Part shown: piece by piece, positions 20,201 to 58,225 of the stretch
Position numbering within the stretch: position 1 is the stretch's first letter
How the letters are laid out: each line of letters begins with the position of its first letter
Assembly: GCA_034670405.1 (NCBI GenBank)
Contig: JAXDDX010000016.1
Coordinates: 888,501 to 952,500 of the forward strand
Reading direction: 5' to 3'
Source of the DNA: Hoplostethus atlanticus
Lineage: Eukaryota; Chordata; Actinopteri; Trachichthyiformes; Trachichthyidae
Length of the DNA stretch: 64,000 nucleotides
Position numbers and translations under genes: made by a program
The notes under the pieces: model-generated
The model's database searches: none
Seen by the model: the letters and a program-made list of their open reading frames with translations, nothing else
What the model was told of the DNA's origin: nothing

Positions 20201-23200
20201 CAACACAGGGTGTCATTCAAACTGAATATTTACTTGCCAATATGCTGCAGTTTTACAAACAAAGTAAACAAAAACGGACCTTTGCACACAACGTGTCGTA
20301 TTCATAACATCACTAAAACTAGTGACAAACACTGAACAGATTACTTCCTTGCACTTAAAAATAAAAGCACTTCCTGTCGACACTGTCCATAGTAATACTG
20401 AAACATTACCATTACTGTAAATAATGTAAATAGTATGTTTTAACATTTCTTCTATAAAATACTAAACTTCAGTTCAATGTGAAATTTGTCCTATTATACT
20501 AAAGGAATAACACATAAGCTAACTAATAGTTAATTAATAATAACATAACTCCAGGCAATACTTACTATCCCAGAGTATTGTACTCTTTTTAAAGCATGTA
20601 CTATTGAAATTATGAAAATGATTATATACCGTGATATACATAGTTACCATCCAAAATTCGAGCCATTTAGGCCATACCGCCGAGCCCTAACTCTGCCCAC
20701 TCTCTTCTGTTGTGCCTTGTTTAACCAATTGGAGTCTGACCTTGGGGCCATCAGGTAAGGCTTATTGATGTAGTTTACAATGTGTTCTTACCCTGACATG
20801 GTCAGTGATGCTGCAGATGGTGATAACAGTATCTCTGGCCAGGAGGAAGTCTTCAGTCACTTTCTCTCCCAGAGCCACCGAACAAAGAGTGTCCAGATTG
20901 CTGAGGACCACCTCCCTCTCTGCCCTGTTAAAAGGCACATATACATTGATGCACAAGCAATAGGTCTGTTGTAAAAATGTATATTCTTACTAGTGCCCAT
21001 ATGATTCATGCATACTCAAGTAATTTCTGAGCAACTCTGCCCTCCATCTCCATTTATCACCCCAACTACTGTGTGCTGGCCTTGCTAGTCCTAGCCTGCT
21101 GCCCAGATAATGTGTGTGGGTGGCTGGGTTAGGAGAAGCACATAAGATTTAATAGGTTATGAAGGCTGCTGGCTGGATGAAGAGAGGCAGCAGTGTGGGT
21201 GGACTGCAGATAGTCTCTCCCTACCCTCTCTTGCTCACTCTTCCCTACAGCAGTGGCAGTCTTTGAGGTACATTGAGTGATTTAAAGAAATATATTTTCA
21301 GTGAAATGCACTGGCAAGGGGCCTAGAGTTACATGGTCGTGACTTCCATGACAATGACGAGAAGCTGGAGCTGAGCTAATATTCTGAGTAATGAGGATAT
21401 GTTGAATGTCAGACAGCTGAGGCAAAGCCAAAAAGTAAAATATGTGCCATTAAACAAATTCAAATTGACTAAAAGTTTGTTCTGTGCAACTTGGCCCTAA
21501 AATAAGACCAATGTCCCTCAGATTATTTAAGAGCACATGACTGACTTTGACATGTCCCTGCCTTAAACACAGGATGACGAACACGCACATGCACCGTCAC
21601 GGCCCTTCCACTGACTTTCAGTTTTACTGCACAGGGGCTCAAAGTGGGTGGGGCTATGTCACTGTAGGCAGGCCCTTATAGCAGCAAACTTTTACTACAC
21701 TGCCAAGATTACCAGCTTCTTGCTAGTCAAGGCAAGAACCCCCTCATTCAGTAAAATTGCATAAGCTGTTTACTCATCACAGGGCAAAAAGTACATTTTT
21801 ATATGAAGACATTGAAAAGAATGTCATATTAAGAAATCATATTAAGACAAGGGCTTATGTTGCAATGACAGATAACCGTGTATGCATCTTACCGTGCAGC
21901 CATGCCCAGCAGTAGCACTGCAGCTCGCCTGGAGAGGAGAGATGTTTCTCGTTTGCCAGTGAACCTCTCCCACAGGACCTGCATCACGGTCGACTGGAGA
22001 CTGCTGCCACTGCCAAAGAACTCCTGCACCTACAGTCAAGGATAGGGGGTTAGAACCCGAACACGCTTTAGTGCCAAGTATGTACATAATACAAAAGGCA
22101 TACCAAATACATGGATTAAACGTATACGGTATGCCTTATGTCTTAGTCAACTACAGACCCATAACTTTCTCTAATATTCTTTCAGGTGCACATAGGCAGA
22201 CTTGAGAGCAAGAGTACTAAGACAGGTGTAACTTACTATCTCCTCTAGACATTGGATTGTTCCCAGGGATGCATCCACCATCAGCTCAGACAGACTGTCC
22301 ACAAGAGTCTGGGCTTTGACCCTGATTAAAAAGAGGATACAGTCATTGTTAGAGGAGTACAAAAATGCTTGAGATAGTGCCTCAGAGTGGAATAGAGTTG
22401 GCTATTAGAAGCTGGAAGAGTCTTATTGTAGATATGGTGGTAGGAGGGATAACAGAAACACACTGGCAGATTAAATCAAAAACTCCAAGCAGGAAATAAC
22501 CCACTGAAAGATCGTGCCAATTGGGTTTGGGGGGGTAAGGGGGTTATGATGTTCCAAGTTAGGAGTCCTAGAGACTAGTGGGACATTAAAGAAAGATAAA
22601 GAGAACATTAAATTGCTTGGCATAAGGTCACCACCTGTGTTGAGTTGTGGTTCTCAACTGTGTGCCATTGAGGCCCAAGAGTATATAGGCGTTCATTCAA
22701 ACCAAGCAGGTCATTTCACAGATTTCGAAAGTAGTGTATTATTGTAAGTTACATTTTAAATCTCCCACAATCCTCTTCATATGCAAGTGAGTTTGGATAA
22801 AGCACATTGTCGTACAAGTAGTGCTTCTATGCATTTATGTAATGTGCTTTGAGCAATCTTTGCCAGTGGTTGAAGGCAGCTGATTAAATCAATAAAATAA
22901 ATTGATACGTAGCTCTTTAGGTCATCGCAACAAATAGGCCATGGGACCGTACAGGATCATTACTTGTTTTATAAGTCAAGGCTCTTCATACTATCATGTA
23001 TGAGTGTGAAGCATTTTACTCACCTAGTGGTGTCTCCCTGGGGGTTAAGATAGAGGCGTCTGTAGGCCTGCACTACAGCATCTTTAATGGCAGCATCAGT
23101 TGACCAGACCAGAGGCAGCATCTTCCTCACCCCACTCAGAGAGTCGGCGACACTGAATTCACATACAGTCACACAAAACTGCACCGCTTCCTGGACCACT

Positions 23201-26200
23201 AAAAACAGAAAGCTTCTGCTGTAGAATGTTTCACATTACTGGATAAATTCACACAAAATGTTCAAGAGTTTGAATTGGTTTGGCGCTCTACCTGAAGTCG
23301 TTTTCCAGTACAGCATGGTATTTATGATAGAGATGGCCCTCTCCACTTGTAAGGCAAAGGTTTCTGTATCTCTCAGGTACTGCACCAACATCTCCTGCTT
23401 CTTTAGTTCACCATCCTCTCCTTCTTTCTGGGGTGTTGGGGGCAGGTTCTGGGTGAGCTCAGGGGTGTCCTCATCAGAGCCTGAGGGGAAAATAAGGAGT
23501 TATAAGTCATAATGGAGATCTGAAAGACATGGATTGAACCAATTACCCTTTTCCTCCCATTGCACCTTGAGTTAAAAAACAAAACAAACATATGCCAGAA
23601 GATGTTGGATAAACTAATACTATATATTAACCACACACACTTAATAGGGACCAGTAATAAATGAAGCTATCAATTTGGCCAATGCACTGACTATAAAGCA
23701 ACACTGACAGGAAAGATAATGAAAACTGAGTGTACCATTTAGAGGGATGTTCTGTATTTGAGAGGCTGATGTTTTTGGAATATATTATGATACAGAAGGC
23801 ATAGGGTTTGAGAGGTTCTGTCCTCTAAAATGTATCCTCTACTTACAGCATTGTAAAGTCTAGGCTAGGCTGGACTAATCAGCTTTAATGCTGCTACCCG
23901 AAAGATCATCTGAGATGAACTTACTCTAAATTGAAGGTCTTAAATGTATTAAATTATACTTCCATTAAGGCTTGTACTGGAGAGCACTTACAGTGGCCAT
24001 AAAAATGCATCAGGTGAACAGAAAGCAGGCTTTACCTTTGAAAAGCAGAGCCAGTGTGTCCATCAGGGTCTTGGTGGTGAGAGTGGACAGAGAAGAGAAG
24101 AGCTCGGACTCAGGGAAGCAGCTGTGGGCTCTTACACAAAGACGTACAGCATTCCTGTAAAGAAAAAAAAGACCATCACAATTAGTTTAGCTTGAGTTTC
24201 TTATAACACTTTCTTTTCGGGGTACTTGCTAAGTGCTGGGGAAAGAAAATAAACTGCATACAAAGAGCTCACTACACAAGACACAAACTTTGTATTTATT
24301 TAGCATCAGTTAATGGTCCCATAGATGAAAGAAGTTTGACAAGGACAATACTTGTGATTAACATCACCTGTATTTGTTGACACGGAGGAACTGAGCAATC
24401 TGTATTGCGGTGACCCTATCGTCTTCTGCCTCCTTTTCTTCCTCCACTCCACTCTCCTCCTCCTCCTGCTGTTCTTCCTCTGCCTCACTTGTGGGCTCCA
24501 ACTCTGTCCTGACAGTGACAAGCAGCTCAGGCTCCATGGCGGCCCACAGTTCCGATGCGGCAATCACTGCCACTGGCAGAAAGGAAGAGGAACAAACTAA
24601 AATTCAACCAGGATGACTCAGAGCTAGAGAATATTTTCAGGAGGAGTAGCTGACTGAGAAGGGGCTTCAGACGCAATTAGTTAATGGTAGGTCTGAACGG
24701 CAAGTATACTATTCACAGGGTAGGAAGAATGGAAGGCGGCCAAGAGAAACATTTAGTTATATTGGATAATGACTGGCAGGGTTACTTATGATTGGTTACG
24801 GTCCCTGGTTCAGGAGTGTGTGTGTTTGTACATGTGCCACCATGCCTATGCTTGACTTTCCTAGCTAGAGTAGACACCCATGTGGGGGCGGGGGGAGCCC
24901 ACACAAAAACTACTTTTATGACTTAGACCATATTTTAAAAAGAGCCATTTATAAAAGGAATGCAGGTAATACAAAAAAAGGTTCACAATCTTTTCCTTAC
25001 AACTGTATTACACTTGTGGCCCAAATGTAATAAGAGCAAAGTAGGAAACTGTTGCAGGTGAATAATAATGTTGGTGGCACCAGTGGTGCACAGATCTGTG
25101 ATAAGATTTCTGATTGTGGCCCTCAGATTACCAAAGAAGTAGCTCATGGCTCACTGAACAGCAAAGAGAGCTGAGTGAACTCCTTGCCTCCAACACCCTC
25201 TCACACATACATGCACACACACATACACACACTGTCAGCATCTTCCCAGTGATTACTCCACTACGACTTTAGAGGAATAATTTGGGTGATGCAAAATCAC
25301 TGTGGGCGGGCCCTTACAGCAGAGCAGAAAAACTCCTCTACGTTGCCAAGATTACCAGCCAGTCAAGGCAAGAAGAACCCAACTCTCTCATTCAGTGAGC
25401 TCGCATTCGCCTTGGTCTCATCACTGGGCAAAATATGAATTGAGCAGAAGAAAAATAAACAGGGTGGAGAAGACATTTTTGAAGGGTTACAGAGTTTGCG
25501 TTTACCAGGTTGTTTCCCCTCCAGTTTCTCTTTGATCTCTCTGAGTTTCGCAGTCTCCTTCTCCAGGGGTTTCTTCAGATCAGGCACTGCTCAACTGAGA
25601 GACACACAATCACATTTCATTCACATTGTGACGCCTGAAAAAGATGTGCTATTGTATTGTAGCTGGTTTCAGTTACCTTGCAGCTATAGGGGTTGTGTGC
25701 GATGAAGGCTGCCAACAGCTGGATGGCGCTCTTCACCACATTTATAGATTTGTCCATCAGCCGTCCCACAGCAATCTTCATGACCTCGCTGTACTTAAAG
25801 AGCGGCAATGCCTACACACATAGTTAAGAACAGTTAGTTTCTATGACCAGGAGGGACTTAATTCTCATACCTTTTCAGACACATTATAACTCAAGCAAAC
25901 TTACTTTGCTGTTGACAATACGCGCATAGACTTGCAACACACGTGTCCTGACGTGGGAGTGTGTGTCATGCAGATGTTCCTGCAGCGTGTCAAAGAAACG
26001 GTCGCGGTCAGCTTTACCGGACTCGTCCAGCCCATCTCCACACAGGACCCGCACCAGGATGTCTCCCAGCACCTCGCACACGGCAACGCGCATACTGTGG
26101 CTCTGGAAAACAGGGAATACATAGTGTCTTGCATCTAAGCATGTCCTTGTGTGTCAGTAAGCAAATATGTTTTGGTTTCTACAATGATCAGGTAGCCCAC

Positions 26201-29031
26201 ATTAAATCCAAACTATCCCTCACTATTCAATGAGTAGTAGTGGTGCCTTTCATGACTGGTATTACTACTTTGGCAGTTTTAACTCCTGATCAATATGGCT
26301 ACCAGTTTGTATTGCTTCCACAACCCTACTTTCCATTGAGTATAAATTCATTGAATGAGTGGTTGTTGGATGTACATGTACTGGTGTGAAGTACCTCTCC
26401 TTCCAGGTGTGTGATGAGCACACTAATGTTGGGGATCATAAATTCAGGGCACCAGGGCACTGAGCTCAGAGAGGAAAGAGGCAAAGGCTTTGACCCCTGA
26501 TCCCTCTCTGGCGAGCTCTTCATTTGACTTCTGACCAATCTCCCTGAAGGAATGGGGAAAGTTGTAGCTTAATGGGTAGAGCATGACACCAAGACTGTCA
26601 GTGTTAGCTGTGCCACAAATGTACAAGGGGTGGACAAAATAACAGGAAACACCACATTTATATAAAAAAGGACTGATGTAACTAAATCACAATTACAAAA
26701 GGCAACAGGCATACAAGTTATTAGTACTAACCTTATTACTTCCCCTATGATGGCTCTAACTCCATACTCTGTGCTCCACACATACACAGCCTGGGCAAAC
26801 ACAGATGACAACTGTTCAAAGTGTTGCAGCAACTGGATCACCTTTACACTTGCACCTGTGGGGAGAGATGAAGTGAGATGGGTGGGAGAAATTTTGATGG
26901 TTATTAGGACAGAGCTGTATGCCTATGTCACAAAGAATTGTCAAAAAATAAAAAAAGACTCAGTCTTCTCTGCCATAGATGAAATGCAAATAACATTTAT
27001 TCTTAAATTCAGCACATGTACCCAGGAGGTGATTGTATTTCTTGACCAGCACCCCCAGCAGGTGGATAATGCCATCTCTGGTGGGTTTGCTCTTCACGTG
27101 GCTGATGGTTGGGTTCTCAAGCAGTTTGTAGCAGCAGCAGGTCACACAGCTACGGGTAACAAACACACAGAAAAGAAACAAAGGAAAAAAAAACAGGATT
27201 AGAGGTTATTTGCTTGGGGGACGTGCTGGTGTTGGCTCTTGCTGCTAACTAACCATTCAAAACCTGTTTGAAGAGCAGTTCTTTTGGTTAAAATCTGACA
27301 ATTAACTTCTAGCATGCAACATCAAGTGCTAAAATAATAATCATCAGTAATGTCGGAAACACACAGCATGTTCTCTAACACTAAAAATAAAAGCCAGAGG
27401 TTTCTGGTGGACACATAACAAAGCAATTTTAACTTTTTTAACCTTTACCTTATGAAAGTCTATGGTTGTGTGACCAGCCCAGTGAGCAAAGATCAGTAAT
27501 CCTGTACAGAGGCAAAGATCAATTCCATGCCCGCTTCTATTAAGATCACAATGATCAAACTAATAGAGTTCAGTCAGCTATGCCAGATCCTGTACCACGG
27601 TCCAGGTCTCCCTAGTCAGTGGAGTACCTGATGAACTCTTCCTCCACCAGAGAGAGGCTCCAGAGGGAACGGATGTCCAGCTGGAGGAGCTGGATTAGGG
27701 CCTGCAACACCCTCTCCCTCTCAGAGTCCCACTGCAGCAGCCCTTCTCCACCAGCCTTGCCTTTTTTACCAGCCTGCACAAGACAGACAAAACCTGATCA
27801 ATTTCAACAGTTCAGGCTTCTCAGAGACTGTACTTTTGAGTCCTGAGCAACAAAACAACCAATTAATACAATGTATGAATGCCCTCAGATTACCAAAGAC
27901 CAGTTCATAGCTGTCAAAAGGCCCTCAACATAGAGGCTGTACCTTCTTGCCACCTGATACATATACATTCATACAAATCACACACACACAAAGACAAACA
28001 AACTCCCACACACTGTCTGAAGCCTCCCACCTGTCCTTTCCCATTTCTGTTGGGGGGGCAGAGGATAAGGAAGGCTACTAGTCAACTGTGGGTGGGCCCT
28101 TACAGCAGTGCAGCAAAACTCCGCCACACTGCCAAGACTACCCACCTACCAGGAGGCTTAAGAGTACAATCCCTTGGCCTGACGGGCTCATACTTGCCAT
28201 GATCTCATCACTGGGCATTTATACATATCAGTGGAACAAAGAACATCATATCATAGGATATCCAATGCAAAAATATCTTAGACGTGTCTTCTAACAAACA
28301 TACCTTGCCAGGTGCTGTGACAATGCTCTGTCTATAGCAGTTGCTCTCAAGGTTCTCCGTCAGTTTGCAGAGTAGGAACACGCTCATTTTAACTGCATTT
28401 AGTTGCTCTTTGCGGTCTGCAGCCGAGAGGGAGGTGGAGAGGAGGAGCGAGGGCAGGGAAACTGCCAGGCCACTGACCACTTAAGAGAAAATAATTCAGA
28501 TGATGATTGATTACCCCAAAACAGCTTTTTTTTAAAACCATGATTCAAACTTTACGATTAAAAAAAATAAAAACAAACCTTGTATAAGTAATTCCAGCGT
28601 ATCCTCTTTCACACTCAACTCCACTGTGTTGCAGTGCCTTTAAAAAGAAAAGAAACCGGTAACTATTTTGCACTTTTACAAACATTGATAACAGCAGGAG
28701 GAAATTGCAATCAACACTCACTGTAGCACACTGTAGCCTATATCAAAGTGCTCCAAGACACACAAAGGTCCCTGGCTTCTCAATGCTACCTTGAAACCTG
28801 TGTGTGTGAGAAGGAGAAAGCTGAAACACGCCAGCCCAACTTAAGATGTTACAGAAAATCCTGAACAAAATAACACTTACAAATACATAATCTGGTTAAC
28901 GTTAACTACGTACTGTTGAGATGAGACGGCAGTTGTTTCGGAGAGACCACATCCTGGACAACATACTGGTTGATCCCCCCGGTCTTCACCAGGTCACCCA
29001 CGCACACAGGTACAAAAAAGTCCCACGACAT
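11286..29031 (-). CDS. ncapd2: condensin I subunit D2 (CAP-D2); three +1 frame breaks
   Basis: HEAT-repeat subunit of condensin I, needed for mitotic chromosome compaction. Thirty-one coding exons (minus): 28914-29031, 28722-28797, 28579-28637, 28304-28479, 27628-27773, 27022-27149, 26732-26855, 26395-26543, 25905-26102, 25677-25811, 25506-25594, 24368-24572, 24036-24154, 23292-23480, 23024-23198, 22237-22321, 21893-22029, 20792-20924, 19331-19406, 18964-19179, 18634-18794, 17480-17591, 17202-17325, 16816-16971, 15050-15227, 14847-14941, 14592-14672, 13802-13985, 13447-13612, 13199-13319, 11286-11362. Discounting three extra bases (about 26447-26449, 25583-25584, 13266-13271) gives 1394 residues, close to the human protein (about 1400). 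The conserved cnd1 core (PIVRAN, LGDLTVRFPN) is in exons 23-25. The acidic tail SSDEEEDEDE ends in RRARL. The intron after 13802 has a GC donor. Poly(A) signal at 11107-11112; a non-coding first exon lies near 29395-29520. Confidence 0.96.
12207..12835 (+). mobile_element. 5'-truncated LINE (L2/Rex-like) 3' end
   Basis: The plus strand carries decayed reverse-transcriptase C-terminal coding: VQNAAARILTKTRKFNHITP, then after frame breaks a KSLHGMAPSYLSDLI-like block. A G/T-rich 3' UTR follows, ending in GTAACGGTGATTAAGGGC. Stops and shifts show it is dead. The exact clade (L2, CR1 or Rex) is inferred. It lies in the last ncapd2 intron, antisense to the gene. Confidence 0.75.
18381..18556. mobile_element. 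fragment of a TTAA-type DNA transposon
   Basis: The right edge (ggggtgaactattcctttaa) matches an end sequence that I know as very common in fish DNA elements inserting at TTAA. No matching left end was found, so this is a partial copy inside an ncapd2 intron. Confidence 0.35.
19980..20697. mobile_element. non-autonomous hAT-type element with 8-bp target duplication
   Basis: A 702-bp unit (19988-20689) is bounded by the direct repeat ACTCTGCC at 19980-19987 and 20690-20697. Its ends are imperfect inverted repeats (TAGGGGTGGGCAGTAT at left; complement of TAGGGCTCGGCGGTAT at right). Eight-base duplications are typical of hAT transposons. It has no transposase reading frame. It sits in the ncapd2 intron between exons 18 and 19. 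Confidence 0.8.
21660..21785 (-). ncRNA. candidate H/ACA-like intronic RNA, copy A
   Basis: One of three related elements in ncapd2 introns, in transcript orientation, starting 107 nt after the donor of exon 17. The 5' end reads GCCCTGTGATGAG. The 3' part has a stem GCAGUG/UGCUGC, then exactly 15 nt, then the terminal ACAGTG (ACA plus 3 nt). The 5' hairpin can close CCCU/AGGG where copy B has CCCA/UGGG. I see no clear hinge box (ANANNA), so the assignment rests on the 3' hairpin and on conservation between copies. It could instead be a dispersed repeat. Confidence 0.5.
25298..25429 (-). ncRNA. candidate H/ACA-like intronic RNA, copy B
   Basis: Related to copies A and C; begins 76 nt after the donor of exon 11. 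The 5' end is GCCCAGTGATGAG and can close with UGGGU to form a first hairpin. In the 3' half the lower stem GGCUGGU/GCCCGCC (one mismatch) and upper stem GUAGAG/CUCUGC enclose an internal loop. The ACA box (ACAGTG) follows the upper stem by exactly 15 nt. Size (132 nt) and order fit an H/ACA guide RNA. The hinge box is not evident and no target is claimed. Confidence 0.5.
28084..28216 (-). ncRNA. candidate H/ACA-like intronic RNA, copy C
   Basis: Related to copies A and B; begins 87 nt after the donor of exon 4. The 5' end is GCCCAGTGATGAG. The lower stem GGUGGGU/GCCCACC pairs without mismatch and differs from copy B by a paired C-G to U-A change. The upper stem GCAGUGUGGC/GCUGCACUGC is 10 bp. 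ACAGTT follows the upper stem by exactly 15 nt. The middle third is the most diverged of the three copies. Confidence 0.5.
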
Positions 29032-30405: not shown

Positions 30406-31415
30406 TTATTTTCTCTTTCTGTCTTGAGAGCAGCGTGGACAATACCTGCATGGCAAGAAATAAAATGACAGCATACAAATTTTGTTAACTGACCTTAATC
30501 AGTAACAATTATTTTATTGCACACATTGAGGGTTTGCAGGTTATAGCCTCCATTCAGTTAGTGAGTTGCTTACCATTTTCCTCTTGGTTTGGTTGTCAAG
30601 CCCACGCATGCAAAATGGAACCACTCAATAGAACACTGGAAACAATCAAGACAATATCAGATATCAAGTAAATTCTCCTGCAAAGTGACAAGTTGAAATA
30701 GACAAACAATTGAAATCACATGATCAATGTGATCATCGTTTGGATGGCCCATTTACATTAACTGAGTGAAACTCAAAGGGGATCATGAATGAAACTCACA
30801 TCAGTGTTGTCACAGCCTATCATCTCGCCATAAGAGACCTGATGACACAGACAGTAGGTGGGTTCATTGGGGTCCACCGGCATGTCCAGCACATCAGATG
30901 GGTGCACATTCCCAAAGTTGGAAGTAGGGGTGTTGAATTCCCCTCTGATAATGGAAAGAAAGTGTGTGAGAATTAGATTAAGTATAACATATCAACTACA
31001 AACATGCACAGCAAATAGATACGAAACGTACGGTTGGAGGAGTTTCACTTTCTTCTGTGCAGTCTTGGGACTGCCATCTTCATCCGAACTCTTCACTTTA
31101 GACCTAGTTTTAGCCACCTTCTTTTCCTTCTGCCTGGAGTCACCTGAAATTACAAAAATAATTTATTCTAACACTCAATTTGTAGGTATCTATTGTAACA
31201 GCCCTCAGTGTAATAAAAACTTAGATAGAGTGGACACATACTTTTCTTTCCCTTACTGGAGGTGGAATCATAATCCGTGCTCTCAATCTGCTTTTCCTTC
31301 AAGTCAGCCTCAAACCGGGCCAGGTCTGTGTCCAGGCGTCTAATGTGCTTGTCGACCTGCAGAAAAATAATTCAAGCTCAGCAGACCCTAAGTGGTGCAT
31401 GTACCAATTCAGCAT

Positions 31416-31448
<33 letters not shown>

Positions 31449-33434
31449 ACATGAGGTAGAACCAGGATGTACAGCGGATGGATGGCATATTTACATATAT
31501 ACAAGTTTAACCAGGTATAAGGACTGGGAAGAGCAGCTTGTGAATGAATGCATGGTAAATATATACAGACGTAATAAATGTGAAAGGGAATGAGATTGAA
31601 TAAAGTGCAGGGCAATGAATAACTGTGAAAGGGAATGAATAAAGTGCAGTGCAGTGAAATGAATGTGAAAGCGAATGGATAAAGTGCAGGGTGATAGGTG
31701 ATAAGTGGTGAGGAGCAAAACAATCCTCAGTTGAGCTGTAGAGGGGGAGGGGGAGGCGTTAAAAAGTCTGATGGCGGCCAGCAGGAAAGACTTCCCGTAG
31801 CGCTCTCTTTCCCACCGTGGTGGGATCAGTCTATGGCTAAATAAGCTCCACTGCGCCATGACCATGGCATGGAGGGGGTGGGAGACATTATCCATGATGG
31901 CCAGCAGTTTGGCCAGCATCCTTCTCTCTGCCACCTCCTCCAGGGTGTCCAGGTTAATCCCCACGACAGAGCCAGCCTTCCTGATCAGTTTGTTCAGTCT
32001 GTTGGCATCCCTGGCTCTGGTGTTAGCACCCCAACACACCCTGGCTCTGGTGTTAGCACCCCAACACACCCTGGCTCTGGTGTTAGCACCCCAACACACC
32101 ACCACAAAGACGATGCAGAACTGCATATGTTGAAGTACCTATCTCATAATATTAGTTTTTTTCCAGTCATACTAACCATCTCATAGGTCTGCATGGCCAG
32201 TTGCACCTTATCATCTCCAAACTCCTTGCATTTACTGTATGATTGCTGAATCTGCCTCAGTATGGAGAGCTTCTGCTCAGAGGAAAGAGTCCTGGCATTG
32301 GATGTGTACTCTTTAGCCAGGGAGTCTATCTGTCCCTTTAAATCTATAGGAGAGACAAGAAGAGAAACCTCTGTAACACATGTGATGCAACTTCACTGTA
32401 TACATTCAATATTTATCAGGACAGACGTTCCCAAATGCTAAACTTTTTTATTGACAATATGCTGTAATACTAGTATCAAAGTGTTGATGTACATGGAAGG
32501 ATAATCATATGAATATGCCTACAAACAGCCTATGTTGAGTAACACCTTATACAGGACATAGCTATGGCCAGGAATATTTTGTGCATGGAAACACACTCAC
32601 TATTTTTGTGAGGCCCCATTGACAATGCTCATGAATTCCATACAATCAGAGTATCTCTAAGATCAAAATGACATGTTGACAAGTTATGTTCAGGTAGTAC
32701 TTATTTACTACTATTCTAATTTAGATGTTGTAATTTTATCCCCTAACCGTAAATAATATAAAAGTGGCACGATGTGCTTTAACAGGTACAACGATAGATG
32801 TAAAATGGAGTGAAGATGACGAATTCATATTATCCAGTGAGTTCAAATTCACATCCAGATTCCAGTCTCTTGTTCTCACCCTCTGTGCGTTGATCTAGAT
32901 CCCTCATCAAATTGAAGTTTCTCTGCAATTCGAAGGGCAGGTTTTCTATGCCTGGTGTAGAGGAGGGAAAGATTACAAAGAACTGAATCCTAGTTTCCTT
33001 GGGACCAACATGCAATGGTGCTAGACAAGCTGGCAAACCATGCTGTGCTGCTCATTTATAACGTTCGCTGTTAAAATTGCCCTTTTAAGGCATTGTAGTA
33101 TACACCAATGGGCAACGAAATAATCAACGCTGCTTAATAAGTGAAGTTAAGTAGTTTAGCAAGGCTGGTAGGTGTACTGTACGATCCCAAAATGCAACCC
33201 TTCTCCGCTACAGTGCGATGCGTTATTCCAGCAAATAGACTGTGCCTAGAAACCGTTGATCATTATTTAACATCAAGATTACTCTGTTCACAACGCGGCT
33301 CGACTATGAATTACACTACACAATGAAGAAACAAAGTGTCAAATAAAGGTAGGTTTAAATATTTCCCAACAATATGTTAAGACGATAAATAGCTCACTGT
33401 CTAAATAGTGCTCCAAGTACATCCCCGCCGCCAT
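30406..33434 (-). CDS. ing4: inhibitor of growth protein 4
   Basis: Chromatin reader of the HBO1 histone acetyltransferase complex; binds trimethylated H3K4 through its PHD finger. Eight coding exons (minus): 33398-33434, 32880-32951, 32177-32343, 31242-31356, 31032-31143, 30800-30944, 30574-30635, 30406-30445; 249 codons plus stop, the same length as human ING4. The ING N-terminal coiled-coil region ([20 protein letters not shown]) fills exons 1-4 and is followed by a lysine-rich nuclear localisation stretch ([14 protein letters not shown]). The C4HC3 PHD finger lies at about residues 196-245, with [29 protein letters not shown] and WYCPRC. The C terminus is the basic RKRK. Poly(A) signal at 30091-30096. 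A LINE fragment occupies the intron after exon 3. The paralogue ING5 is less likely given the fit to ING4 in the middle region. Confidence 0.96.
31416..31446. repeat. (TAGA)n microsatellite
   Basis: About eight TAGA units abut the 3' end of the minus-strand LINE fragment next to it. They may have arisen from that element's tail. Confidence 0.9.
31448..32120 (-). mobile_element. LINE 3' fragment in ing4 intron
   Basis: The minus strand codes for the C-terminal end of a non-LTR retrotransposon reverse transcriptase ([39 protein letters not shown] and [16 protein letters not shown] blocks). A low-complexity tail and (TCTA)n follow. Catalytic domains are absent (5' truncated). The clade is not settled. 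Confidence 0.8.
32009..32100. repeat. three tandem copies of a 30-bp unit
   Basis: The unit ccctggctctggtgttagca plus ccccaacaca is repeated three times without change at the upstream edge of the LINE fragment. The perfect identity points to recent expansion or an assembly effect. Confidence 0.9.
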
Positions 33435-34140: not shown

Positions 34141-37100
34141 TTACTGTACAGCCTCTTGATTTTGCAGAATTTTCTTCAGCTTTTTGAATTTATTCTTCCC
34201 CATTCTGTTTTTTTGCTTCATGGGGGACTTTCTGTTTTTATCCTGCTTTTTCTCAAATCGACTCCCTTCCTTTTTTTCAGCTCCTGATGCTTTAGTCTCC
34301 GCAGCAGACTTCTTGCCCTCTGCTTTTTTCACAGTCTGTCCATCCATCTTGGCAATCTTTGCCTTTTTTGGTCCAGTGGGCAAGTCTTTTTTGCCCTTTG
34401 GCTGTTTGTTTGACATTTTCTTGGCTGCTGTTCCATTGGCTTGGGCTTTTTGCTGCGGGGCGCCTGCCTTGCCAGGGACAATCTTCTTGGTTTTGTCCCT
34501 TTTGGATGGTTTCTCATCAGAAGTGTCTGTAACTACCATCGCATCAGAAGTCTCCGCTTCCTCTTCTTCTTCTTCTTCTACTAAATAAGTGACAGACACA
34601 GACTGTTAGGATGAGGTCTTGTTCTCTAGCATGATGAAAGTTGCCATGTACTCACAATAGAAAATGTTACCTTTTCCTGTTGGTGCAGTTGGAATTGTGT
34701 TTGAGAACTTCTTCAGCTTGGCCACAAAGAAACCGTCCATGTTGTGAGAATGAGGATAAAATCGTCGAGAGAGGCGGAGAGTAGGATGGAATCTACGTTC
34801 CTTGAACCTGAATGGATGGAGAAATAAATGAGAGGTTGAGACTGACAGTACCTGCATTTCAATGCTTTCTAAAAACATGGTAGCTTATTTACCTGGTGAA
34901 ACCCTCGTTGCCAAAGTCAAGTCCAGCGGGAACTAATTTGACATTCCTTTTCTTTAGTGCGTAGTCCACCACCCACTCATTCTCCTCCACCTAGTGGGAC
35001 ACACTTTGGTTACTACTTAAGTCCTCCAGAACCCCCCCTCCACCATCTATAGCCCAATAGTTACAGAAAAGTGTTAACTTCTCACATATACATACCATGA
35101 TTGAGCATGTGCAGTAGACCAGATATCCCCCTGTAGAGGACTCAGCGTTCACAGAGTCGATAGCAGAAAGAATCAGCTCCTTCTGCAGGTGGGCAGAGCG
35201 CTGGATGTCTGCCTCATCCTACCAGGAGCCAGGAAGATAAGAGGCAATAGTATTAAGCTACTATTAACTAAACTTAGTGTTTCTATGGGTGTATATGCCA
35301 AGACAGTCAACAGTGCTGTACCTTACTGGTCTTCACAGCTGGATCTTTAGAGATGACTCCTGTGCCTGAACATGGGGCATCAAGCAGCACTCTATCAAAT
35401 CCACCCATTACCTGTAAGCAAAATATTCACCAAGTCAGCAGACTATACAGAGCTCTGTAATCTGTACCAGAGATATCTCTGCTCAATAGATGCATGCGTA
35501 TGACTATGCATATCACATTACCTTTGGGAACTGCCTGCCGTCGTAGTTGCAGACCACCGTGTTGGTGACCCCCAGACGGTGGATGTTTCCCACCACACTC
35601 TTCAGCCTAGCAGCGTTGGCGTCGTTAGCCACTACCATCCCTGTGTTTCTCATCAGCTGAGCTAAGGGCGACATTTTCCCATATGCAATTAAATACATTT
35701 TATTTCCATGTGATAAATCTTTGTATTTGCCGCACAGGGAAGGGATTACACAGTGCACAACTCTTCATAACAAGGGATTGTGACTAGTGGCTAGACAACA
35801 AGGTTCTGGAGACAGACATATGAGCTACATAACTACACAAACAAAGTGTCAACTTACCAATATAGGTGGTCTTGCCGCCTGGAGCTGAACTCATGTCCAA
35901 CACAGACTCGCCCTCCTGAGGAGAGAGCGCCATGACTGGGAGAAAACTGGAGGCTCCTTGCAGCATGTATTGACCAGCCAGGTACTCTGGGGTAGCACCT
36001 GGTAAAACACATGGCTGCGGTTACATTATGCTGTTTTTCAACCCCAGGAAGTCTGCGTTCACAAACAGTTGTATGCAAAAGTTTGGGCACCCCTGGTCAA
36101 ATTGCATGTTTTCTGAATCTCTAAGTGAAAAGAAACACAACCTCTGCACAGTACAAACTTAAACATGATATGTTTTTACACATTTTAATGCACAATTACT
36201 ATTTATTTTCTGAATTTAACAGATTTAAAAAAAGAAACAGTAAATGAGGCATGTGCAAAGTTTGGGCACCTCTCATCTTATTCAATGTGACTACCTCATC
36301 GTGCAATAGTCTAAAGCACTACTGGACTCTTACCTTACCTCCCCTACAGCTGCACCATACTGTATGTATATAATGAATGAGTATGTGTAGAGCAATGTGT
36401 GTAGTCTATTCTCAAATGTGTGTGCAGTCCTGTAGTCTTTGTACCATTTGTCAGTATTTACTCTGTATCTGCACCAATGTCACAATTTGTCAAGACTGCC
36501 TGTACATTTACTGGTACTGGCATTTATTTCTGATTAATATAAGGCTAGATAAACAGATACTTGTGCATTGATGCATAAAGTAAAACAATGCACATGTTGC
36601 AAGACACTACTTATGAACACTCACGATTTTACAGACACTCAAATGTTCATATATTCTCTCATTACTTAATGTGCATCGCTTGGTTTACACGAATGTACTG
36701 AAACTTACCAATGGGTACTGAAGAGTCGAAGATGACCAAACCCACTTTTGACCATTTCCCCAGTGGATCAAGGTTCACTCCTCTGTTGATCAAGGCCTAT
36801 GCAAGGAAACACATGGATCACTCAGTCTGACAGGTCAAGTTTCATTGTTAACCTTTTCGTTAGAGTTGAGCTGAGAGTGTAATGGTATTAAGTGTGGGGG
36901 CGACATGACAATGTGACATCACCAGTTCAATTTCTCTCAGATTGACCCCACAAAGAGACTGTGGACATTGTTACATTATATTAACCTACAATTTGCGTGT
37001 AATTTCCATTCATAACTTTCCATTCACTGCTTTCTGAAAATATTGTGATAGGATATTTCGTCCATATCGCCCACCCCTGGTGGTTACCTGCGCCAGGTCC

Positions 37101-39670
37101 CTCCTCCTGGTTTTCAGTGTGTTGGTCCGAATAGTGACAGGTCTCTGAATTTCATTGGCCTCAAGGAAATCAATCAGCTGTAACAAAAGGAAAAAAACAA
37201 AGCAAGCTATGATTTAAGATGTTCTACTTATACACGGAAAAAAAAAAAAGGTTCCAGTCAATCAAATCAACATGCCACCTAAACCATTTTTATCAGTAGT
37301 GGGCCTCACCAACAAGCCACCAGCTCCTCACCGGCCTAGATTTTTGTTTCATTTGTCTTTCCTAATTTCTTGTATGTTGATTCTTACTGTCAACACCAGC
37401 CACCAGGTTAAACTATTTTTTATATGTAAACCAATGTGATTCTAATTCTGGTAAAAGGATGATCATCACAATTTCAATGACAACAGCATGTGGTTCCTTT
37501 AGCACCACAAAACACAAACCTCTGAGAGTGGGAAGATGTCCATTAGTTTCTCAATGAGGAAGTTGTTGTAGCTGTAGTAGGTGCAGAGATCCTTCTTCAG
37601 AAGAGAGATATACTCTGCCCTCTCTTTCCCCTCCTCCCTTTTTGTGGCAAAATTAGAAAGGACATCAATGTTGTCCTTTATTCTTTGGTAGATTGTCTGC
37701 AGGTCTAGAGGCAATATACCTACAAATGAAGAGAATAAGAGAAAGACTTAGTCCACTCAGAACAATTAAATGTTAGTTTGCTCCTACAAATAACAGAAAT
37801 CTGATTTGACAATAAGTCACTCACCCTCTTTCTCCCTCTCCTCTGCCCCAGGCAGCCTGAATGTATCCATTTCATCTATATTGGTTTGTACTGTGTCCTC
37901 CTCATCCACGTCTGTGTCCGCATTCTTCCCCTCCTCTTCATCGTCGTCATCATCTTCATCACTCTCTTGAGCCATGGCGTCCTTTAGTCTTTTCTGTTTC
38001 TTGGCTGCACGCTCAATGGGAAGAAGCTGAACATGGAATAAAAACAAAAAGGTTAGTAGTCTCTTCTAGAAATAATTCAATTAAAGATGTTTTATAGAAA
38101 ATGTTGCTTAACCCTACTAATAACTGCACTTTTACTACATTAACATGCTTCAACTCTCATAAAAATGGCAAGAACCTGCAAAAGTAGTTTTGGTCACAAT
38201 AAAAAAGCCCAACAAAATTCTAGAGTGTTAGTGTATGGATCATAAAACATTACACAAAACACACTGAACCAAACTGCAAACTACAAATCTCCCTAGTTTC
38301 TAAAAGAAATAAAGGACCAACAACAGTAGAATCATCTCACATACTTCCTCTCCATCACTTCCTTCTTCTCCTGCTTCGTCATCACTGCTCTCATCAAGTG
38401 CACCATAGTCATCAACCATATCTTCATCACCGTCGCTTTCATCCACCTCTTCAGTTCCTAATTTTACTCCCTTCTTTCCTTGGTCATTTCCTTCCTCCTC
38501 CTGCTCCTGCTCCTCATCCTCCTCCTCCTCCCACTGACTCTCACTATCATCCTCGCTTCCCGGTTGTTCGATTTTGCGTTTCCTCGTTGCTGGTTTCAAC
38601 CAGTCACTGTTCTCATCGGTGAATCCTTTTGGGAAGAAAAAAGTTGGAACAATAAACACCACAAATGAATTCACTACAGTTTACATTTACACTACAAACT
38701 TACATTCACACAAATGTATTTTTAAGTGATACATCTGTATAATAACATATCAAGAGTGGAGCAAGTGGAGTTGGGAATCTTATCTTAATCTAGTAAAGAT
38801 GTTGTTAAAAGAGACTTCTCTTCTGGTTCATACTGTTTTTTCTTCCCCCTTGAGCTAAACACTCATTGGCTGTAGCCAGGATTGCTGTCAGATTTCAGTC
38901 TTGGACCTACATGAGTGTGAAAAGACTGGGCCCAACACAATTACACGTTTGAATCTTGTCAAGCTCCGACTGGTCTGGGATTGTCAGGATAGCCAAAGCC
39001 GTTCACACTACAGAATCATCTGCGCCGACTGTCAGGCCTGAGTGCCCCCAGCCCCAACTCACCCTCACAGGATGGTCCGGTTGCATTTACAATCCACGGG
39101 GAAAATAATGTAGTGTGACGTAGGCTTTAGTCTCAATGGCTAGCATTAGTAATGTAGAGAGAAAACAACACAACCAGAATGACTGAGACTGATGTGGTTA
39201 CCTTTTGCTGGCTGCGCCTCAGCAACAGCAACAGCTTTGGGCTTTTTATCTTGGACTCTCTTCACCGCTCTGGAAAATGACAACATCAGTGAGAGTGATT
39301 GGGTAATATATATACTACTGGAATATATATATACTATACTGGGGAACAGTGTTGCGTGTTATGTAATCAGGCAGCCTCTTACCTTTTCCTGGCTCTACTT
39401 GACAGGCGTTTTGGTCCAGTTTCCTCTGCAAATGGCAAAAAATTCAACACCTTTATAAAGAAGCCACATGTAGTCGGCGAGAGGTTGATATGGTTGATTT
39501 TACAGTTCAGATTCAAACAGTAACAACATGTCTGAAGATCTGACGGAAAGTGCACCATACTCACCATCTGTTATAAACTTGGCCAACTCGGTCTCTGCTC
39601 CCTTCTGCTTCCTGGCTTTTCTCCCTGGCCCTCGCTTCACCTGGTTGGTGGGATCCAACTTCCTACCCAT
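34141..39670 (-). CDS. nop2: NOP2 28S rRNA cytosine-C5 methyltransferase
   Basis: Nucleolar NSUN-family enzyme (NSUN1, p120) that methylates cytosine in 28S rRNA for 60S assembly. Fifteen coding exons (minus): 39565-39670, 39383-39425, 39202-39269, 38345-38625, 37825-38026, 37520-37719, 37088-37177, 36709-36796, 35858-35998, 35522-35661, 35322-35411, 35096-35218, 34893-34990, 34671-34807, 34141-34580; 748 residues, in frame throughout. The N terminus ([20 protein letters not shown]) is basic, then acidic in exons 4-5. The SAM site is [10 protein letters not shown] (about 394-403). Motif [10 protein letters not shown] has Cys467; motif VI YCTCSI has Cys521, the family's nucleophile position. 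Human has DMCC where this has DMSS. The lysine-rich C-terminal tail is shorter than in human. A non-coding exon ends at donor 40286. Poly(A) signal 33783-33788. Confidence 0.97.
36066..36290. mobile_element. Tc1/mariner-like short element in nop2 intron
   Basis: It starts with CAGTTGTATGCAAAAGTTTG followed by ggcacccctg, an end sequence I recognise from widespread short vertebrate DNA elements. A related motif (gcaaagtttgggcacctc) occurs in the same orientation about 190 bp on. No coding sequence. Family name is uncertain. Confidence 0.6.
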
Positions 39671-40286
39671 GACTTGCAGCTACACGGGTACCCTGAAGAG
39701 AGCTGAATGTACAAAATATCAACATCAGTGTGTATGACTAGAAGTCACTTTTATTCATCATGTTGTATTGCTTTGGCGCTCAACTGACTGGAGCTAGATT
39801 GGCATATTAGGAGGACTTAGCGAAACAAGACATCGTGATGGAGCACAGTGAGGGTACACACTTGAAGTTACAGCACTTTGTAAATTCAACGTCATCACTC
39901 TGATAGTTTTGTTTGGACATGAATGACTGAAATGAATTTAAGCAACCATTCGTCACAAAAATGTCATCCAATGTTAAACTGCCTCAATATGTCATTCACT
40001 AGTTTAACAGCATGGTGTGTCGACAAATCCAGGCAAAGTGACAGCGGCTTTTTGCAGTGGCAGAATAAGTATGACAGAATCAAACATGACACAACGTTTA
40101 CTGTTACAAATTGAATACTAGCTGAGGCAACTCTGCCACCTAACTTAACTAAACTCATGTTAATACAGCAAGCACGCATTGCGTGGTAACGTTACCGAAG
40201 CAAAGCTCCGACTTAGGTCAATAAAATGTACTGTCGTGGCTCCTTGGCCAGCAGTTAAACTAATCGATGTATCTTCCCATACTCAC

Positions 40287-52666: not shown

Positions 52667-58225
<5,559 letters not shown>

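Follow-up and report, generated by a model that had tools for sequence, protein, structure and literature searches.

What are the three related RNA-like stretches that lie in introns of the ncapd2 gene within the 64-kb window (the whole stretch of Hoplostethus atlanticus DNA that was analysed)? The original prediction described a new intronic family of pseudouridylation guides of the H/ACA type, lacking a hinge box and multiplied within ncapd2. The family itself, its sense orientation and a true pocket hairpin stand, while the new H/ACA family has given way to U85 (RF01296). U85 is a mixed C/D-H/ACA Cajal-body RNA that guides the 2′-O-methylation of C45 and the pseudouridylation of U46 in U5 snRNA. 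Judging from the sequences, the probability is about 95% that the U85 scaRNA (SCARNA10, RF01296) is represented here by the three elements, as intragenic paralogs in three introns of the fish ncapd2 gene. This identification follows from full-length RF01296 matches above the gathering score in two of the three copies, from the pairing of the guides with an assumed U5 sequence, and from the match of the host gene to condensin.

A scan with covariance models had been proposed as a check in the original prediction. It was found that RF01296 (snoU85; model length 329, gathering score 41 bits) accounts for the only two matches of the 64-kb window to Rfam at the gathering threshold, both on the minus strand and of full length. 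Thus, copies B and C were matched end to end, while copy A failed: it is absent from the three Rfam matches at E up to 1 in the 64-kb window, and when searched alone it scored 10.4 bits in a partial match to the pocket hairpin only, below the gathering score. This exposes an annotation gap, as a diverged copy is missed by the Rfam model. Matches to rliH, JUMPstart and HOXA11-AS1_6 lay far under their own gathering scores and were taken as chance. The three elements, with the 3′ edge of copy A (about 21512) placed by eye using box D and the closing stem, are as follows.

27880..28216, minus strand: copy C, full-length U85-like scaRNA, 337 nt (60.2 bits, E 8.2e-13, model 1-329)
25118..25429, minus strand: copy B, full-length U85-like scaRNA, 312 nt (58.7 bits, E 2.3e-12, model 1-329)
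21512..21785, minus strand: copy A, diverged U85 paralog, about 274 nt (by alignment with copy B)

The coordinates, the orientation and the mutual similarity of the stretches hold as first described, with a mean column identity of 78% across the three stretches as first delimited. Their extent of about 130 bp was drawn too short; they are the 5′ portions, of about 130 nt, of RNAs of about 274-337 nt. Local alignment of the full elements scored 475 for A-B, 291 for A-C and 561 for B-C, and the best scores from 500 dinucleotide shuffles each were 224, 240 and 238, respectively. The A-C similarity by itself is only modestly above chance; copy A is related to copy B along the length of copy A. Three related intronic copies might also be seen if a SINE or MITE had been scattered here and had taken on an RNA-like structure by accident. 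I consider this extremely improbable, since all three copies have the sense orientation and the family has an Rfam identity (RF01296). Moreover, a BLAST search of the three copies against the whole 64-kb window (E up to 0.1) returned, besides the copies, only matches of their UG-rich stretch, and a scan of 29100-12500 for further U85 remnants, covering both strands, found nothing else that scored above 140, as against 182-318 among the three 5′ cores.

According to the Rfam model and inspection by eye, the order of parts is box C, the pocket hairpin, the H-box position, a second hairpin, the ACA box, the methylation guide and box D. The boxes other than box D, which is listed below with the guides, were located as follows.

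28205..28211, minus strand: box C of copy C, GUGAUGA
25418..25424, minus strand: box C of copy B, GUGAUGA
21774..21780, minus strand: box C of copy A, GUGAUGA
28084..28089, minus strand: H-box position of copy C, ACAGUU
25298..25303, minus strand: H-box position of copy B, ACAGUG
21660..21665, minus strand: H-box position of copy A, ACAGUG
28014..28016, minus strand: ACA box of copy C, 3′ of the second hairpin
25233..25235, minus strand: ACA box of copy B, 3′ of the second hairpin
21595..21597, minus strand: ACA-box position of copy A, reading ACG

Box C (GUGAUGA) and box D (CUGA) are found at the ends of all three copies. What had been regarded as the start of each element is box C; this had gone unrecognised, as had box D, which stands at the actual 3′ end. 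Likewise, the ACA that was thought to terminate the elements occupies the H-box position, and the ACA proper comes after the second hairpin; it is kept in copies B and C and lost in copy A (ACG). The H-box position departs from the strict ANANNA in all three copies, in that the place is right and the last base is not A. The Rfam consensus has ACAagA at this position, which I take to be the H box from my reading of the consensus line. By eye, the loop of the first hairpin contains AG in copies B and C, which makes it no more than a candidate Cajal-body (CAB) box.

Is an H/ACA-only guide RNA of about 130 nt, without a hinge box, still a reasonable description? The pocket hairpin would suit it, and the spacing on which it was built is exact: in all three copies the ACA begins 14 nt downstream of the base that opens the 3′ guide, so that it stands 15th when counted from the end of the upper stem. 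However, the domain is flanked by box C and box D in all three copies, whereas an H/ACA-only snoRNA would stop 3 nt past the ACA and lack C/D boxes, and the RF01296 match in copies B and C spans the whole model of 329 positions and reaches box D. A second hairpin and an ACA also follow in copies B and C, although that hairpin is more stable than shuffled sequences in copy B only. Such a family is thus very improbable.

The folds support the individual copies unequally. The whole of copy B is more stable than its shuffles (z -4.9, 0 of 100 as good), and the folds of copy C (z -1.2, 8 of 100 as good) and copy A (z -1.7, 12 of 200 as good) are not clearly better than theirs. Of the six sub-hairpins, just two are outstanding, namely hairpin 2 of copy B (z -4.5) and hairpin 1 of copy C (z -3.7). 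The other four are not, among them the second hairpins of copy C (z -0.3) and copy A (z -1.1). As for the compensatory changes described earlier, the exchange of C-G in copy B for U-A in copy C in the lower stem is present in the sequence. The 5′ hairpin, said to have CCCA/UGGG in copy B and CCCU/AGGG in copy A, did not survive inspection. Its proposed partners lie at different alignment columns (42-45 in copy A, 49-52 in copy B), and in copy C the CCCA faces AGGG at best, giving three pairs by eye. In the minimum-energy folds of all three copies, the CCC is paired instead with the GGG that follows box D close to the 3′ terminus, and the closing stem is GCCC/GGGC in copies B and C and CCCU/AGGG in copy A.

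The guides were compared with an assumed U5 snRNA sequence. Their positions are as follows.

28134..28139, minus strand: 5′ pseudouridylation guide of copy C, AGUCUU (assumed U5 48-53, one G-U)
28098..28103, minus strand: 3′ pseudouridylation guide of copy C, GUAAGG (assumed U5 40-45, two G-U)
25348..25353, minus strand: 5′ pseudouridylation guide of copy B, AAUCUU (assumed U5)
25312..25317, minus strand: 3′ pseudouridylation guide of copy B, GUAAGG (assumed U5)
21705..21710, minus strand: 5′ pseudouridylation guide of copy A, AAUCUU (assumed U5)
21674..21679, minus strand: 3′ pseudouridylation guide of copy A, AUAAGG (mismatch opposite assumed U5 C45)
27885..27899, minus strand: methylation guide and box D of copy C, UCUUUGGUAAU-CUGA
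25123..25137, minus strand: methylation guide and box D of copy B, UCUUUGGUAAU-CUGA
21518..21532, minus strand: guide position and box D of copy A, UCUUAAAUAAU-CUGA (three bases unlike copies B and C)

In copies B and C, all ten bases of the methylation guide (-2 to -11 before box D) pair with the assumed U5, including one G-U, and the fifth base falls opposite C45. The pseudouridylation pocket around U46 pairs at 12 of 12 positions in both copies, G-U included. Copies B and C thus keep both guides, for C45 and for U46 of U5, and they look functional as far as the sequence can tell. Each copy is presumably released from the spliced and debranched intron. In copies B and C, an H/ACA domain of two hairpins lies between the box C/D ends. 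The 2′-O-methylation of U5 C45 would be directed by the 10-nt antisense element before box D, and the pseudouridylation of the neighbouring U46 by the pocket in the first hairpin. Guiding would be expected to take place in Cajal bodies, by analogy with established knowledge of U85. I infer the expression and processing of the copies, their Cajal-body location and the actual modification.

Copy A pairs with the assumed U5 at eight of the ten methylation-guide positions, with mismatches opposite 45 and 47, and at 11 of the 12 pocket positions, failing in the 3′ guide at the base opposite 45. It shares its ancestral RNA with copies B and C, has lost its fit to U5 together with the ACA box, and is most probably a decaying paralog. 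Alternatively, copy A could be functional and retargeted, methylation and pseudouridylation having moved jointly to a U5 variant or to some other RNA. There is a small chance of this because both guides changed from G to A at the base opposite the same nucleotide, U5 C45; together, the changed guides would suit a target that has U in that place (for methylation, UUAUUUAAGA), and the 5′ guide, the pocket, the 14-nt spacing and boxes C and D are all kept. This is unlikely nonetheless, as the ACA box reads ACG, the whole fold is weak, and a lone H/ACA change among 12 guide bases would fall opposite C45 by chance about once in 12 (estimated by hand). If true, one duplicated scaRNA would have shifted both of its activities at once to a new target.

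UG-rich tracts are located just past the ACA box on the minus strand, at 25198-25241 in copy B and, more weakly, at 27965-28004 in copy C. No UG-rich stretch was seen in the Rfam RF01296 consensus. The best 24-nt stretch has 18 TG or GT steps out of 23 in copy B, 15 in copy C and 11 in copy A; regions with at least 14 such steps number six on the minus strand, two of which are in copies B and C, and seven on the plus strand. The tract is not easily dismissed as chance; copies B and C are paralogs and represent one event. According to two reports, UG-rich tracts direct other C/D scaRNAs (scaRNA2, 7, 9 and 28) to Cajal bodies; the likeness consists of a UG-rich tract within a Cajal-body RNA (PMC6412121, PMC4041459). 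In contrast, human U85 is described there as localised by CAB boxes and unmoved by TDP-43 knockdown (PMC6412121, PMC4041459). In the predicted folds, the tract forms a stem of eight pairs in copy B and nine in copy C, with four wobble pairs each. The tract, considered as a possible Cajal-body signal, does not show the run of consecutive wobble pairs described for C/D scaRNAs.

The joined reading frames of the host gene match four distinct condensin subunit 1 sequences in PDB (best E 3.5e-26). I take the host to be the D2 subunit gene, ncapd2, from an exon-by-exon match to an assumed stretch of the human NCAPD2 sequence. All three copies lie inside its introns in the sense orientation, and the distances from donor to element given earlier (107, 76 and 87 nt for A, B and C) are exact. 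An acceptor-like site precedes the block with the ATG, implying a 5′ untranslated exon. With the introns numbered by a hand count of reading-frame blocks, about intron 5 would hold copy C, about intron 12 copy B and about intron 18 copy A. In the BLAST search and the scan, the equivalent of intron 9 yielded no U85. In the exon encoding SALVP/EFMIPNISV, a run of CCC (around 26447, minus strand) coincides with a one-base shift of the ncapd2 frame, which is either a sequencing slip or a real change. Adjoining reading frames on the minus strand, at 30776-30991 and 34144-39679, may correspond to ING4 (PHD finger) and NOP2, which neighbour the gene at human 12p13. Near the ING4-like frame, a short tandem array has three identical 32-bp stretches with 30-bp spacing (32009-32100), and a long GT/CA microsatellite occupies 54517-54708.

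How do these copies compare with known U85 genes? They have in common with U85/SCARNA10 (RF01296) an H/ACA domain set between C/D ends, the two U5 guides, the NCAPD2 host and the sense orientation; they differ in the H-box position, ACAGU(G/U), and in the divergence of copy A. In the open-licence literature, U85 is named in Drosophila and human (PMC4053861) and SNOU85 among stickleback RNAs (PMC4041765). Human U85/SCARNA10 is listed in NCAPD2 with the targets U46 and C45 of U5 (PMC3766210), and a chicken list gives one copy of 342 nt in NCAPD2 intron 3 (PMC2653536), so that three copies here stand against one each in those lists. C/D copy numbers are stated to trend lower in placental mammals (PMC3349704). 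The closest parallel is pikeperch, for which one account gives three U85 transcripts of 315-325 nt with RNA-seq counts in Ncapd2 introns 5, 9 and 12 (LOC116049801, LOC116049802 and LOC116049806), the intron-5 copy being far scarcer than the other two (PMC11788885). By the hand exon count, introns 5 and 12 of pikeperch appear to match copies C and B. The lengths are 315, 325 and 321 nt in pikeperch versus 337, 312 and 274 nt here. Pikeperch has an intron-9 copy and, in that account, none is reported further down, whereas here the intron-9 equivalent has none and copy A lies in about intron 18 (PMC11788885).

Three U85 transcripts in Ncapd2 have already been published for pikeperch (PMC11788885). 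As U85 is a known RNA of this gene in human and chicken, the finding is real but largely ordinary. What it contributes is a further fish whose ncapd2 carries three copies of U85. The chicken study names intragenic duplication as the principal way in which snoRNAs expanded in chicken (PMC2653536), and the present locus suggests that copies of U85, too, come and go among the introns of a single host gene. Copy A is a small example by which to follow the decay, or the change of target, of a double guide RNA.
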